Origin: Agromyces sp. Marseille-P2726
GTDB lineage: Bacteria > Actinomycetota > Actinomycetes > Actinomycetales > Microbacteriaceae
NCBI RefSeq assembly: GCF_902809835.1
Contig: NZ_CADDWM010000014.1
Coordinates: 434,001 to 498,000 of the forward strand
Reading direction: 5' to 3'
DNA length: 64,000 bases
The translations under genes were made by a program, and so were the position numbers. Of the stretch, positions 33,026 to 40,468 are shown piece after piece. Within the stretch, counting starts at the first letter, position 1, and each line of letters begins with the position of its first letter. Below the pieces are notes generated by a model. It saw nothing but the letters and a program-made list of their open reading frames with translations, was not told the DNA's origin and did no database searches.

Positions 33026-34318
33026 ATGAGCGTATTCGCGAAGGCCACGGCCTCGCGCTCGGCTCGCGCAGCATGGACGGGGGTCGCCCTCGCCGGCGTC
33101 AGTGCCCTCCTCCTCACCGCGTGCAGCACGGGCGCCCCGGCCCCCGCCGAATCGGATGAACCGACCGAGGCCGCCGGCGACGCCCTGCCGATCGAGGCCG
33201 GCGAACGTGACCTCACCCTCAAGATCGGCACCCTGCTTCCGCAGAGCGGCAACCTCGCGTTCCTCGGACCGCCCGAGGAGGCAGGTGTTGCGGCCGCCGT
33301 CGAGGACGTCAACGATGCCGCCCAGGGAATCACCGTCGAAGCCGTCTACCGCGACTCGGGTGACACCACCACCGACATCGCGACCGTCTCGACCACCGAC
33401 CTCCTCTCGCAGGATGTCGCGGCGATCGTCGGGGCGGCCTCGTCGGGTGTCTCCTTCACGGTCATCGACCAGATCACCGCGGCTGGTGTGGTGCAGTTCT
33501 CGCCGGCGAACACGTCGCCCGACTTCACCGATTACGACGACAACGATCTGTACTTCCGTACCGCTCCGTCCGACCTCCTGCAGGGTGAGGTGCTGGGCAA
33601 CCAGATCGCCTCCGATGGCGCATCGACCCTCGGTCTCATCGTCATCAACGACCCCTACGGCACCGGCCTGGCCGAAGCGACCAAGGCGGCGTTCGAGGCG
33701 GCCGGCGGCGAAGTGGTCGCCGAAGAGCTCTACAACACCGGTGACTCGAACTTCGACGCACAGGTGGCCGCGATCACCGCGGCCAACCCCGACGCCGTCG
33801 CGGTCATCACCTTCGACGAGTCGAGGGTCATCGTCCCGGCCCTCGTGGGCGCGGGCCAGCCTGGTGACTCGCTCTACTTCGTCGACGGAAACCTGTTCAA
33901 CTACACCGCGGACTTCGCACCCGGCCTGATCACCGGGTCGAAGGGCACCCTGCCCGGGCCGAAGCTGGAAGACGACTTCCGCGACCGCCTGCTCGCGGTC
34001 GACCCGGCACTGACCGAGTTCGCCTACGGCCCCGAGTCGTACGACGCGGTCATGCTCATCGCCCTAGCCGCGTACGCGGCGAACAGCGCAGACCCCGCTG
34101 ACTTCGCTCCGTACATCCGGCAGGTCTCGGGTGGCACCGGCGACGGCGAGAAGGTCTCCACCTTCGCCGACGCCGCCGCGCTCCTCGCTGAGGGCCAGCA
34201 GATCGACTGGGACGGCCCCTCGGGCCCGATCACGCTCGACGAGGCCGGCGACCCCACCGAGGCGAGCATCGGTGTCTACGAGTACGCAGAGGACAACACG
34301 TTCTCGCGTATCAACTAG
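33026..34318 (+). CDS. ABC transporter substrate-binding lipoprotein, branched-chain amino acid/amide type
   Basis: This is a membrane-anchored receptor of a Liv-type ABC importer. The 430-residue product has a basic N-terminus, a hydrophobic stretch and the lipobox LLTAC with Cys33, then an acidic Pro-rich linker and a type I periplasmic-binding fold (IGTLLPQSGNLAFLGPPEEA; VYRDSGDTTT; VINDPYGTGLAEATK). The frame is open upstream, but the ATG at 33026 has the ribosome site. It converges on the transporter genes livF-H on the other strand. Leucine-type amino acids are the best guess; short-chain amides or urea are possible. Confidence 0.87.
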   Translation: MSVFAKATASRSARAAWTGVALAGVSALLLTACSTGAPAPAESDEPTEAAGDALPIEAGERDLTLKIGTLLPQSGNLAFLGPPEEAGVAAAVEDVNDAAQGITVEAVYRDSGDTTTDIATVSTTDLLSQDVAAIVGAASSGVSFTVIDQITAAGVVQFSPANTSPDFTDYDDNDLYFRTAPSDLLQGEVLGNQIASDGASTLGLIVINDPYGTGLAEATKAAFEAAGGEVVAEELYNTGDSNFDAQVAAITAANPDAVAVITFDESRVIVPALVGAGQPGDSLYFVDGNLFNYTADFAPGLITGSKGTLPGPKLEDDFRDRLLAVDPALTEFAYGPESYDAVMLIALAAYAANSADPADFAPYIRQVSGGTGDGEKVSTFADAAALLAEGQQIDWDGPSGPITLDEAGDPTEASIGVYEYAEDNTFSRIN

Positions 34319-34334
34319 TACGCACCTCGCCTGG

Positions 34335-34362
34335 AAGGGCCCCGGCTCCGGCCGGGGCCCTT
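34335..34362 (+). terminator. Terminator after the substrate-binding lipoprotein
   Basis: A perfect 12-bp stem AAGGGCCCCGGC (34335-34346) with 34351-34362 and a TCCG loop is followed by T-rich TCGC. It begins 17 bases after the stop codon. Confidence 0.85.
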
Positions 34363-34469
34363 TCGCATGCCCGGTCTCCGGCCGGGGCCCTTTCGCGTGC
34401 CCGGCTCCGGCCGGGGCCCTTTCGCATGCCCGGTCTCCGGCCGGGGCCCTTTCGCGTGCCCGGTCTCCG
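34351..34469 (+). repeat. Four tandem copies of the terminator's 3' half (about 30 bp each)
   Basis: The unit is GCCGGGGCCCTTTCGC + (A or G)TGCCCGG(T)CTCCG, at 34351-34380, 34381-34409 (29 bases), 34410-34439 and 34440-34469. The variants CATGCCC and CGTGCCC alternate. Each unit keeps the GCCGGGGCCCTTT arm and T-run. A C-rich low-complexity stretch follows to about 34519. Confidence 0.9.
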
Positions 34470-34727: not shown

Positions 34728-35495
34728 TCAGTCCTGGCCGAGCGTGCCCAGGTACAGGCCGATGACCTTCGGGTCGTTCAGCAGGTCGCGACCCGTTCCG
34801 GTGTAGGCATCACGGCCCTGGTCGAGCACGTAGCCGCGGTCGCAGATCTGCAGGCAGCGACGGGCGTTCTGCTCCACCATGATGGTCGTCACGCCCGCTC
34901 GGTTGATCTCCTTGACGCGCAGGAACGCCTCGTCCTGGCGGACCGGTGAGAGTCCGGCCGACGGCTCGTCGAGCAGCAGCACGTGGGGGCCCATCATGAG
35001 CGCTCGCGACATCGCGACCATCTGCCGCTCACCGCCCGACAGTGAGCCGGCGCGCTGGGTGAGTCGCTTGCCGAGCTCGGGGAAGATGTCGACGACGAAC
35101 GCGAGCCGCTCCTTGAGCCCCTTGGGCTTCTGGAAGAGGCCCATCTCGAGGTTCTCCTGGATGGTCAGCGAGGGGAACACGTTGTTCGTCTGGGGGACGA
35201 ATCCGACGCCCTTGGCGACGAGCTTGTTCGCCTTGAGGTTCGTGATCTCCTCGCCGTTGAGGCGGATCTTCCCCTCGCGCACCTTCACGAGCCCGAAGAT
35301 CGCCTTCAGGAGGGTCGACTTGCCGGCACCGTTGGGGCCGATGATGCCGATCAGCTCACCCTGCCTCGCCACGAGCGAGCACGAGTTCAGGATGTTCACG
35401 CCTGGCAGGTAGCCCGCTGTGACGGTGTCGACCTCGACGACCGTGTCGGTCTCGGCTTCGAGCACCGCGCTGGCGGTGGGTTCACTGTTCGTCAT
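34728..35495 (-). CDS. livF: Branched-chain amino acid ABC transporter ATP-binding protein LivF
   Basis: This is one of the two ATPases of a Liv-type importer. The 255-residue product has Walker A GPNGAGKST, the Q-loop VPQTNNVFPSLT, the ABC signature LSGGERQMVA and Walker B LLLDEPSAGLS, plus the LivF-type EQNARRCLQICDRGYVLDQG. About 16 additional N-terminal residues precede the core. It overlaps livG by 14 bases. It is the last gene of the minus-strand operon livH-livM-livG-livF. Confidence 0.93.
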   Translation of the reverse strand: MTNSEPTASAVLEAETDTVVEVDTVTAGYLPGVNILNSCSLVARQGELIGIIGPNGAGKSTLLKAIFGLVKVREGKIRLNGEEITNLKANKLVAKGVGFVPQTNNVFPSLTIQENLEMGLFQKPKGLKERLAFVVDIFPELGKRLTQRAGSLSGGERQMVAMSRALMMGPHVLLLDEPSAGLSPVRQDEAFLRVKEINRAGVTTIMVEQNARRCLQICDRGYVLDQGRDAYTGTGRDLLNDPKVIGLYLGTLGQD

Positions 35496-36396
35496 CGATG
35501 AGCTCCTTCAACACCTCGACGTTCTCCGTGTCGGTCGCGCCGAGGTCGGTGTCGTGATGCGCACCGAGGTACGCGTCGATCACGGCCGGGTCCTCCATGA
35601 CCGTGTGCGGATCGCCCTCTGCGACGATCCTGCCCTCGGCCATCACGATCACCCAGTCGGCGATGTGGCGCACCATGTGCATGTCGTGCTCGACGAAGAG
35701 CACCGTCATGCCCTGCGACTTGAGATCGAGGATGTGATCGAGGAGCGACTGCGTGAGGGCGGGGTTCACGCCCGCCATCGGCTCGTCGAGCATGACGAGG
35801 GTCGGGTCGCTCATGAGCGCTCGGGCCATCTCGAGGAGCTTGCGCTGTCCGCCCGAGAGGCTCGCCGCGTAATCCTCCTTCTTGGCGTCGAGCTTGAAAC
35901 GCACGAGGAGTTCCTCGGCCTTGGCCTCGATCTCGTCCTCCTGCTTGCGCCAGACGAACGGCAGGATCGAACGGAACAGGCTCTCACCGGTCTGCCCCTT
36001 GGCACCCAGCTTCATGTTGTCCATGACGGTGAGCAGGCCGAGCGCCTTCGTGAGCTGGAAGGTGCGGATGAGCCCCATCCTGGCGACCCGATAGGCAGGC
36101 ACGTGGGCGAGCGATCGACCGTCGAACTCCCACTTGCCCTCGTCGGGCTTGTCGAACCCCGTGAGCAGGTTGAAGAACGTGGTCTTGCCGGCACCGTTCG
36201 GGCCGATGAGGGCGGTGATGGCGCCACGCGGGATCTCGACGTGGTCGACATCGACCGCCGTGAGCCCCCCGAAGGTGCGCTTGACGCCGTCGGCGGTGAG
36301 GATCGGGTCGACCTTGCGGACGCCCGGCTCGGCTTCGCCGACGTGGAGGCCGGTGCTCTTGACCGGCTTGGCCGTGGGAGTGACGTTACTTGACAA
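35482..36396 (-). CDS. livG: Branched-chain amino acid ABC transporter ATP-binding protein LivG
   Basis: The second ATPase of the importer. In 304 residues I see Walker A GPNGAGKTTFFN, the LivG-type RTFQLTKALG block, the signature LSGGQRKLLEMARAL and Walker B VMLDEPMAGVNP, then FVEHDMHMVRHIADWVIVMAEG. It has a longer N-terminus (about 35 residues) and an acidic C-terminal tail (about 25) compared with E. coli LivG. The start overlaps livM by 11 bases. Confidence 0.93.
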   Translation of the reverse strand: MSSNVTPTAKPVKSTGLHVGEAEPGVRKVDPILTADGVKRTFGGLTAVDVDHVEIPRGAITALIGPNGAGKTTFFNLLTGFDKPDEGKWEFDGRSLAHVPAYRVARMGLIRTFQLTKALGLLTVMDNMKLGAKGQTGESLFRSILPFVWRKQEDEIEAKAEELLVRFKLDAKKEDYAASLSGGQRKLLEMARALMSDPTLVMLDEPMAGVNPALTQSLLDHILDLKSQGMTVLFVEHDMHMVRHIADWVIVMAEGRIVAEGDPHTVMEDPAVIDAYLGAHHDTDLGATDTENVEVLKELIDDEQ

Positions 36397-37369
36397 AGGC
36401 CAGCTCCTTCTTGTTCCCGAAGATGCCCTGAGGCCTGAATATGACGATCAACATGATCGCGATGCCGACGAGGATGAACCGGAGCTGACCGGCCTGCACC
36501 TGCGTCATGAACGGGAACCAACCCACCTCGACCGCTCGGGCGACGAAGCCCGAGAAGAAGGACAGCAGCACCCAGAAGATCATCGATCCCACGATGGGTC
36601 CGAAGATCGTGGCGGCCCCGCCGAGCAGCAGGATCGCGTAGATGAAGAACGTGAGCGACGTCTGGTAGTTCGCCGGCACGACCGCGCGCGGCATGATGAA
36701 GATCATACCCGCGAACGTGCCGTAGACCCCACCGAGGATGAGGCTCTGCATCTTGTAGGAATAGACGTTCTTGCCCAATGCGCGCACCGCGTCCTCGTCC
36801 TCGCGGATGCCCTTGATGACGCGCCCCCAGGGGCTGCGCATGATGAGCCACGTGAGCAGTGCGAACAGCACCACGAGCGTCCAGCCGACGATGCGGATCC
36901 ACCAGTCGAACGCGTTGTAGGTGAAGGGCCCGAACCCGTAGGTGCCCGGTGGGATCGGGTTGAGGGCGGCGAGACCGGTCTTGTAGCCCTGGAGGCCCGT
37001 CGCCGACCCGGTGATCGCGTCGAACGTGTTCGTCGTGAAGATGAGCCGCAGGATCTCGGCCGCGGCGATCGTCACGATCGCCAGGTAGTCGGCTCGCAGA
37101 CGCAGGGTCGGGATACCGAGGATCAGGGCGAAGATCACGGATGCCCCGATCGCGACGAGCACGGCCGCCCACACCGGGAACCCGAAGCTCAGGGTGGAGA
37201 TGGCGTATCCGTACGCACCGAGCGCCATGAAGCCCGCCTGACCGAAGTTCAGGAGGCCCGTGTAGCCGAAGTGGATGGCCAGGCCGAGTGCGGCCAGCGC
37301 ATACGCGGCGGTCGTGGGGCTGATGAGCTCCTGTGCCGCGTTGGAGAAGATCGTAATCCAGTCGATCAT
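36386..37369 (-). CDS. livM: Branched-chain amino acid ABC transporter permease LivM
   Basis: This is a membrane subunit with roughly nine to ten hydrophobic segments over 327 residues, starting MIDWITIFSNAAQELISPTT. The conserved LNFGQAGFMALGAYGYA block and the EAA-like loop region SPWGRVIKGIREDEDAVRALGKNV identify it as LivM. The C-terminus ends in LFRPQGIFGNKKELAF-type sequence. It lies 12 bases downstream of livH, with GGAGGACC upstream of the start. Confidence 0.92.
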   Translation of the reverse strand: MIDWITIFSNAAQELISPTTAAYALAALGLAIHFGYTGLLNFGQAGFMALGAYGYAISTLSFGFPVWAAVLVAIGASVIFALILGIPTLRLRADYLAIVTIAAAEILRLIFTTNTFDAITGSATGLQGYKTGLAALNPIPPGTYGFGPFTYNAFDWWIRIVGWTLVVLFALLTWLIMRSPWGRVIKGIREDEDAVRALGKNVYSYKMQSLILGGVYGTFAGMIFIMPRAVVPANYQTSLTFFIYAILLLGGAATIFGPIVGSMIFWVLLSFFSGFVARAVEVGWFPFMTQVQAGQLRFILVGIAIMLIVIFRPQGIFGNKKELAFVK

Positions 37370-37381
37370 GGTCGGTCCTCC

Positions 37382-38740
37382 TTAGCCGATTCTCTCGCGG
37401 CGACCGAGGATGCCCTGCGGTCGGAACAGCAGCACGACGATGAGCACGACGAGCGCCCCCACGTACTTCATGTCGGACGGGATCCAGAGGGTCGACATCT
37501 CGATGAACAGGCCCACGATGAGTGAGCCCACGAGCGCGCCGAACGCCGTGCCGAGTCCGCCGAGCACCACCGCCGCGAAGATCAGCAGCAGGATCTGGAA
37601 GCCCATGTCCCAGCTCACACCCGGGCGGAAGTACGCCCAGAGGACGCCGGCGAGGCCGGCGAGCGCCGCACCCGAGACCCAGACGATCCGGATGACCCGG
37701 TCGACGTCGATGCCGCTGGCGGCGGCGAGGCTGGCGTTGTCGGCGACTGCGCGCGTCGCCTTGCCGATGCGGGTGCGCAGCAGGAAGTAGGCGACCGCGA
37801 CGAGCACGACGATGCTCGTCGTCATGCTCGCGATGTCGATCCACGACAGGGAGATGGGTCCGAGCTGGATGTCGGACGGAGCGGTGGCACCGGGCAGCTG
37901 CTGGGTGCCACCGCCGTAGATGAACTGGTACGTGTACCGAAGGGCCAGCGAGAGGCCGATGCTCACGATCATGAGGGGGATGAGGCCGACGCCTCGACGG
38001 CGCAGCGGTTTCCAGAGCCCCGCGTCGAGCACCCAGCCGAGGAGTGCGCTCAGCACGATGGCGATGGCGATCGCGATCCAGATCGGCAGGGCGAGGTCCA
38101 CCCCGAAGGTCAGCACCATGAGGGCGCCGAACGTGACCATCTCGGCGTGCGCGAAGTTCGAGAGTCCGGTCGTGCCGAAGATGAGGGACAGCCCGATCGC
38201 GGCGAGCGCAAGAAGCAGGCCGAAGTTCAGCCCGTTGACGAGCCGGATGAGCACCTGGGCGAACAGCCCGGTCGTCTGGCGTTCACCCTCGCCGATGAAG
38301 AAGTTGACCGCCTTGATGCCGGTGAGCCCGAACTCCGCCTCCACGGTGGCGCCGCCCTCGGTGACGGCGACACCCTCGGGCAGGGTGTCCTCGTCGAGCG
38401 TGACCTCGTACGTGGCCCTCTCGGGCACTCCGATGCGCCACTTGCCCTCTGCGTCGGTCTCGGTCTCTGCCTCGAAGCCGTTGCCCTCGACGGTGATGCG
38501 AACGCCCTCGAGCGGTTCGTCCTCGAAGGTGACGTTGCCGGTGAAGAAGTTCTCGAACTCCTCCTCCTCAGCAGGCGCTGTCGGCTCCTCGGTCTGCTCT
38601 GCTGCCGGGGCCGGACTCACTTCCTCCGCCATCGCAGGGGACGCTGCGATGCCGGACAGGGTGAGTGCGGACAACAGGATTCCGAGGAGTATGAGCCACC
38701 TCCCGGGTGACCGTCGGGCGACTGTTTGAGTGGGTTCCAC
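37382..38740 (-). CDS. livH: Branched-chain amino acid ABC permease LivH with fused exported beta domain
   Basis: The C-terminal part (about 157-452) is a LivH permease: LNFGLLLALAAIGLSLIFGTTGLSNFAHAE, the EAA-like RTRIGKATRAVADNASLAAASGID, and LFRPQGILGRR at the end. Ahead of it lies a signal peptide (1-38, ending ASPAMA), an acidic Pro/Glu linker (39-66) and a beta-rich segment (67-150) resembling carboxypeptidase-regulatory-like domains (GNVTFEDEPLEGVRITVEGNG; TDAEGKWRIGVP). The total of 452 residues compares with about 300 in ordinary LivH. GGAGG (38744-38748) supports the GTG start. The extra domain would face outward and could contact the lipoprotein receptor; that is inference. Confidence 0.88.
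   Translation of the reverse strand: MEPTQTVARRSPGRWLILLGILLSALTLSGIAASPAMAEEVSPAPAAEQTEEPTAPAEEEEFENFFTGNVTFEDEPLEGVRITVEGNGFEAETETDAEGKWRIGVPERATYEVTLDEDTLPEGVAVTEGGATVEAEFGLTGIKAVNFFIGEGERQTTGLFAQVLIRLVNGLNFGLLLALAAIGLSLIFGTTGLSNFAHAEMVTFGALMVLTFGVDLALPIWIAIAIAIVLSALLGWVLDAGLWKPLRRRGVGLIPLMIVSIGLSLALRYTYQFIYGGGTQQLPGATAPSDIQLGPISLSWIDIASMTTSIVVLVAVAYFLLRTRIGKATRAVADNASLAAASGIDVDRVIRIVWVSGAALAGLAGVLWAYFRPGVSWDMGFQILLLIFAAVVLGGLGTAFGALVGSLIVGLFIEMSTLWIPSDMKYVGALVVLIVVLLFRPQGILGRRERIG

Positions 38741-40468
<1,728 letters not shown>

Follow-up and report, generated by a model that had tools for sequence, protein, structure and literature searches.

To our knowledge, permeases of the LivH family are usually regarded as membrane parts without added domains. 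A sequence-only reading of 64,000 nucleotides of Agromyces sp. Marseille-P2726 (the window, meaning the whole stretch that was analysed) had proposed that one such permease is made as a fusion, with a signal peptide and an exported beta domain ahead of its membrane part. The locus raises the question of whether this extension is real, how widely it is kept and what it may do on the outer face of an importer. The features concerned are listed below by window position, with the basis of each assignment in brackets.

An extended LivH-type permease in a livHMGF operon

37382..38740, minus strand: livH-type permease gene, 452 aa, GTG start, stop codon included in the range
38744..38749, minus strand: Shine-Dalgarno sequence GGAGGT, 3 bases ahead of the GTG (read directly)
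38627..38740, minus strand: signal-like sequence, residues 1-38, with a cleavage-like site A36-M37-A38 (helix 13-31 in the AF2 model; rule-of-thumb signal check on relatives)
38552..38626, minus strand: acidic linker of low conservation, residues 39-63 (pLDDT, dN/dS, gap share)
38285..38551, minus strand: predicted transthyretin/CnaB/CarboxypepD_reg-like beta-sandwich domain, residues 64-152 (Pfam and structure models)
38267..38284, minus strand: short tether from the beta domain to the first membrane helix, residues 153-158 (AF2 model)
37385..38266, minus strand: permease membrane domain BPD_transp_2, residues 159-452 (Pfam and AF2 model)
36386..37369, minus strand: livM-type permease (family searches)
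35482..36396, minus strand: livG-type ATPase (family searches)
34728..35495, minus strand: livF-type ATPase (family searches)
33026..34318, plus strand: livK-type substrate-binding lipoprotein, convergent with the operon (PF13458; 430 aa from ATG; lipobox-like LTAC)

The profile PF02653 (BPD_transp_2) matches LivH residues 167-437 with an E-value of 1.9e-43 and 149 bits against a gathering score of 26.8, which places the protein in that family. The operon with LivM, LivG and LivF and the nearby LivK-like receptor give it a LivH-type context. Two equivalog profiles fell below their cut-offs: NF008011 (LivH, high-affinity branched-chain amino acid permease) scored 116 bits against 379 and assigns no substrate, and TIGR03409 (UrtB) scored 131.9 against 250.3. 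No equivalog cut-off is reached, so the substrate, probably branched-chain or similar amino acids, is a tentative assignment.

The livM, livG and livF genes lie downstream of livH, all on the minus strand, and a divergent guaB gene, which we take to encode IMP dehydrogenase, lies upstream. The order livH-livM-livG-livF recurs in 125 of 128 domain-bearing loci (at least 6.5 kb each), and 111 of the 128 also have the convergent livK downstream, an arrangement that reaches far beyond the genus; divergent guaB is found in 64. Among the loci without the full arrangement, several end too early or yielded no livK, and L071 has a different order. In the window, the gap separating the convergent livK and livF genes contains a GC-rich tandem array (34341-34469, a 30-base unit in 4.4 copies).

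Three permease paralogues in the same genome (L002-L004) are ordinary, with 289, 291 and 293 aa at their chosen starts, and match the permease part only. The extra domain is thus excluded as a general trait of LivH-type permeases.

The extension is part of the gene

The residue limits given by the sequence-only reading (length 452, signal 1-38, beta domain 67-150) are correct by the open reading frame, Pfam and the AF2 model. Immediately 5' of the GTG start stands GGAGGTGCA, and this nine-base sequence recurs ahead of the start in 17 of 24 other same-genus loci. Among 80 named relatives, which are the best 80 matches and hence near relatives, no other start in the open frame has a longer Shine-Dalgarno match than the chosen one in 79, and in 71 of these none equals it; the single exception is L198. 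This comparison is independent of our start-choice rule, which favours hydrophobic N-termini and makes a second count, a signal-like N-terminus in 180 of 182 rows by the rule-of-thumb check, partly circular. A domain profile of our own finds the domain in all 80 named relatives (worst E 2e-17).

Among the window's gene and six sequences from Agromyces, dN/dS amounts to 0.30 in the domain and 0.23 in the permease, and reaches 0.55 in the signal and 0.80 in the linker (39-62). At each position the commonest residue takes an average share of 0.55 within the domain, 0.71 within the permease and 0.15 within the linker across 182 aligned rows, which include near-duplicates (some genomes twice) and L068, a row with a false start and no domain. 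Another 12 of 194 rows, shorter than 400 aa by the start rule, were left out; domain sequence is present in four of these (L026, L105, L108, L111). The domain profile misses L026 because its chosen start falls inside the gene, but the domain can be read in that locus. In L026, from the same-genus genome G006, signal region and domain lie in different frames, through an assembly error or a broken gene.

The sequence-only reading had itself named translation from a start after residue 150 as evidence that would speak against the fusion; the Shine-Dalgarno comparison in 79 of 80 relatives and the dN/dS of 0.30 in the domain contradict it. A mis-called start, with the permease truly beginning near residue 150 and the upstream frame a chance or separate unit, could appeal to a PF13620 match under the Pfam gathering score. 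Set against the conserved Shine-Dalgarno sequence and start, the presence of the domain in every one of the 80 named relatives, the purifying selection and a confident predicted fold, it is extremely improbable. The first three of these grounds led us to exclude a chance frame or wrong start, and the domain in relatives' genomes excludes an oddity of a single genome or an assembly fusion.

A predicted beta-sandwich, probably on the outer face

A domain search of the N-terminal region, proposed in the sequence-only reading, returned PF13620 (CarboxypepD_reg) at residues 67-119 with an E-value of 3.1e-6 and 27.9 bits, under the gathering score of 32.3; the same profile matches 16 of 16 diverse alignment members at E<=0.1. 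PF13715 also matches LivH (E 0.00049, 20.5 bits) under its cut-off of 32.2, so the domain does not qualify as a member of that family of SusC N-terminal extensions (NTE). SdrD_B was weakly matched by 5 of the 16 diverse members (best E 0.0094), and a PDB sequence search gave no match at E<=1.

The AF2 model of LivH, built on 74 aligned sequences, has a mean pLDDT of 86.3. It contains a helix at 13-31, strands at 64-149 and a permease part with nine longer helices; the first permease helix spans 159-191. Block means of pLDDT are 91-96 for residues 61-120, 76 for 121-130 and 67 for 151-160, which is a weak spot, and values lie below 50 across residues 33-57. Modelled alone, the beta domain has a mean pLDDT of 90.4 and eight strand elements. 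Its closest structural match is a TIE protein (Z 11.1, rmsd 2.7 over 86 residues), followed by SdrD (Z 10.7 and 10.6), duck carboxypeptidase D domain II (Z 9.8) and the transthyretin-like domain of human carboxypeptidase D (Z 9.2). Foldseek matches include the SusC N-terminal domains 9hfj (with the whole LivH model) and 6ytc (with the domain model); the whole model recovers mainly domain matches, plus PsaBC for the permease. The structural match spans most of the domain, and residues 64-152 are predicted to be a transthyretin/CnaB-like beta-sandwich.

The top structural matches are mostly cell-surface or pilin beta domains (TIE protein, SdrD, UafA, SpaD, BcpA). Together with the weak SdrD_B matches, they invite the idea of a wall or surface spacer, a stalk like the CnaB or SdrD B domains that would make room for the receptor or touch the thick cell wall. 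However, a single domain at short membrane spacing in most rows makes a poor stalk, and likeness within this fold class is widespread, Z being 8 or higher for 298 of 1000 aligned chains; we consider a spacer unlikely. Because the fold class is so widespread, a shared fold gives no evidence of function.

Within the domain, conservation peaks mostly at glycines, prolines and positions that probably belong to the core (G68, G99, P106, Y111, L120, P121, G150). Few polar positions are conserved above 60% (T95, D96, E107, T114, D116, E117, T119, N146, E151), and some of these presumably form the turn pattern of the fold family; we saw no catalytic-looking set among the conserved polar positions in 181 rows (L068 excluded). 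The small number of such positions argues against an enzyme, and with no catalytic-looking set the domain is most likely a non-enzymatic accessory module. Transthyretin-like folds may nonetheless bind ligands or be enzymes, 5-hydroxyisourate hydrolase being among the structural matches of the domain model, and the domain could be imagined to sample substrate or carbohydrate at the transporter mouth. The scarcity of conserved polar positions and of any catalytic set speaks against such a ligand-binding or sensing domain, which we hold to be quite improbable.

The Arg/Lys-rich stretches 244-249 and 322-330 and the C-terminus share one side of the modelled helices, the cytoplasmic one if the N-terminus is outside. 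Residues 39-158 contain 31 acidic (D/E) and 6 basic (K/R) residues. From the charge pattern of the modelled helices and the positive-inside rule, we infer that the N-terminus of LivH is outside, and a signal sequence ahead of an exported domain agrees with this orientation. The linker has a mean gap share of 0.59 at positions 39-64 of the 182-row alignment. The residues separating positions 152 and 164 number at least 10 and at most 54, with all three quartiles at 11, in the 181 rows without L068, which are biased to close relatives. A spacing of about 11 residues suggests that the domain sits close to the transporter mouth, though not rigidly everywhere; a tether of up to 54 residues in some lineages counts against a rigid docking geometry throughout. 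The proposed fusion of a signal-like sequence and a carboxypeptidase-regulatory-type beta domain to a LivH-type permease is supported, with the domain probably outside.

In family f30 (loci L064, L065 and L208-L211), the open frames run to about 520-617 aa, the domain is present and the permease profile match starts late. The late match suggests a further insertion inside the membrane part.

The fusion is conserved across the class and beyond

The closest named relatives of LivH (best 80 matches) come from Agromyces, then Cryobacterium, Microbacterium and other Microbacteriaceae. In a first sample of 40 genomes, our own included, 30 match at E<=1e-60. G033 is the sole one of these without the domain, and its LivH keeps the signal and the acidic stretch despite the loss; G006, also among the 30, has the frame break ahead of the domain described above.

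For the class, we searched a sample of 393 genomes with a full-length LivH profile at E<=1e-60. It matches 168 genomes, and those without a match lack a close LivH orthologue. The alignment begins at profile position 42 or earlier in 150 of the 168, the domain starting at about position 43. The remaining 18 consist of 7 domain bearers, all of which match the domain profile (G103, G233, G273, G297 and G403, with loci L205, L209, L210, L211 and L208; G221, L071; G383, L065), 4 genomes of one genus with a signal-like start and no domain (G087, G307, G350, G384) and 7 short paralogues. Over the whole set, 157 genomes carry the domain, 4 have orthologues with the signal only, and 7 have short paralogues with neither. 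At the level of the phylum, 32 of 198 sampled genomes match at E<=1e-50. The alignment starts at residue 86 or before it in 24 of them, is cut by a contig end in 1 and covers the permease only in 7. Outside the class lie 21 of the 24 N-terminally complete matches.

The actinobacterial survey that the sequence-only reading had called for thus finds the domain in 157 of 168 matching class genomes and in other classes of the phylum. That reading had named absence from most orthologues as counter-evidence, and the same 157 genomes and 80 of 80 named relatives contradict it. Nor did the view of the domain as an oddity of a single gene hold, as the trait is conserved in the orthologue group. As far as sequences tell, the fusion is a real and ancient one, and almost every close orthologue that we examined in the class retains it. 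Its retention there and in other classes implies a standing job on the outer face.

Gain and loss of the domain

We built permease trees by a quick method. In the tree of the permease part only (80 rows), 61 bearers and 5 non-bearers nested among them are separated from 14 domain-less rows with an SH-aLRT of 99.9, and three changes suffice to explain the presence and absence of the domain. The loss in G033 (L207) falls deep among the bearers. A group of four genomes, all of one genus (L068, L069, L120 and L206), branches near the base of the clade, so domain loss and ancestral absence are inseparable there. By eye, a signal-like N-terminus is present in all five in-clade non-bearers (L068, L069, L120, L206, L207). 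Since the export signal is kept in all five, it looks more basic than the domain, and the existence of five sampled orthologues without the domain shows that it is not indispensable.

We also looked at LivK in these loci. Its linker length has no clear pattern with domain loss (98 loci with the domain, 6 without; a crude lipobox finder misread some rows). The LivK lipobox looks degenerate, with Val before Cys and a possible signal peptidase I site, in L069, L120 and L219. The fourth domain-less locus of the same genus, L068, has a normal LivK lipobox; this is a single clade, so the pattern is not evidence.

What the domain may do

We then propose a model for LivH as the permease of a five-part ABC importer, LivHMGF plus the lipoprotein LivK. 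The signal sequence would take the N-terminus of LivH across the membrane and would probably be cleaved at A-M-A. The beta-sandwich would thereby be placed on the outer face, and the first permease helix would then take the chain into the membrane from the outer side; in most rows, about 11 residues would separate the domain from the membrane. There, at the transporter mouth, the domain may help to hold or orient the loaded receptor, in a manner comparable to MalF-P2, or it may steady the first helix.

The sequence-only reading had suggested that the domain docks the lipoprotein receptor. A docking partner should co-diverge with LivK beyond the co-divergence of the whole operon, and we applied a partial Mantel test to 97 non-redundant loci out of 103 holding all genes. 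No special domain-LivK co-divergence appeared in these 97 loci (partial r 0.05, permutation p 0.21), against 0.34 for permease-LivK, and the test lends the docking proposal no support. The permease-LivM value is 0.51. For the domain, partial r is 0.22 with its own permease (p 0.001), 0.20 with LivF (p 0.001), 0.09 with LivG (p 0.04) and 0.00 with LivM (p 0.52). The LivF value has no obvious meaning; it shows that the test is limited and suggests that it carries rate noise. The LivK result makes receptor handling less likely; we give this function rather less than even odds, narrowly ahead of biogenesis or stability.

The co-divergence with its own permease, and the signal-like N-terminus kept in the five domain-less orthologues, would also suit a role in biogenesis, with the signal driving the first helix in from outside and the domain mainly aiding the folding, stability or quality control of LivH. 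However, the same-genome paralogues L002-L004 and several domain-less relatives manage without such an N-terminus, and a pure insertion aid needs no constrained folded domain of 85 residues. We regard biogenesis as somewhat unlikely.

Our tentative preference, held at less than even confidence, is for an exported, non-enzymatic accessory module at the transporter mouth. It is tempting to go further and see a phylum-wide, undescribed accessory domain of LivHMGF importers whose task at the cell surface is to handle the lipoprotein receptor, with a single gain close to the root of the orthologue group and one or more later losses that spared the signal; taken as a whole, this fuller account is doubtful. 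The domain offers a direct way to ask how receptors meet transporters in bacteria without a true periplasm.

Comparison with known systems

The titles and abstracts among the open-licence PMC matches listed hold no description of the fusion, which agrees, within open-licence papers, with the statement of the sequence-only reading that no role has been described. The domain is a conserved accessory domain on a common importer type for which we found no prior description. In the excerpted part of one source, livH and livK of Clavibacter michiganensis are merely listed as down-regulated in a rel mutant (PMC12455917).

Two ABC importers offer parallels for extracytoplasmic domains on the membrane subunit, each described here from excerpts of its source. 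MalF-P2, an extracytoplasmic part of a permease subunit, makes contact with the maltose-binding protein (PMC3150292). It comprises MalF residues 91-271 and is no N-terminal fusion behind a signal, and receptor contact is shown for MalF-P2 whereas it is proposed for LivH. In GlnPQ, extracytoplasmic substrate-binding domains are linked N-terminally to the membrane domain of the importer (PMC8025302); these fused domains are the receptors themselves, whereas the LivH receptor is a separate lipoprotein.

The LivH domain also parallels the unexplained N-terminal domain of SusC importers. In the Bt1763 SusC, the PF13715 NTE precedes the barrel, and the excerpted text terms its function unknown; deletion of the NTE gave no growth on levan at about 25-50% expression, with the mechanism left open there (PMC7782687). 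Like LivH, the SusC proteins of Bacteroides carry a carboxypeptidase-regulatory-like, seven-stranded domain ahead of the membrane part of a nutrient importer, as far as the excerpts go. In contrast to LivH, SusC is an outer-membrane barrel of another transporter family, energised by TonB, with the domain ahead of the TonB box. The likeness is one of fold only.

Another parallel in design is UrtB of Sinorhizobium meliloti pSymA (L227, 1709-3322), a protein of 537 aa with PF02653 at 245-519 that is annotated only as UrtB. Like LivH, it has a LivH-type permease behind a signal-like start and an extra N-terminal region, and its aligned permease part is 28% identical to LivH. The extra region differs: it spans about 210 residues, is weakly HEAT-like (E 0.0041, under the cut-off) and is not the beta domain. 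Methylovirgula UrtB has 302 codons with the stop; of seven actinobacterial UrtB matches, six have open frames of 295-321 aa and one falls in a frame of 788 aa. Agrobacterium livH, considered as a candidate UrtB, encodes a permease of ordinary length. Judged by its sequence, S. meliloti UrtB is a separate case of similar design with a different N-terminal region. This suggests that permeases of this type can accommodate exported domains at their N-terminus, and do so in at least two unrelated ways, in LivH here and in Sinorhizobium UrtB.
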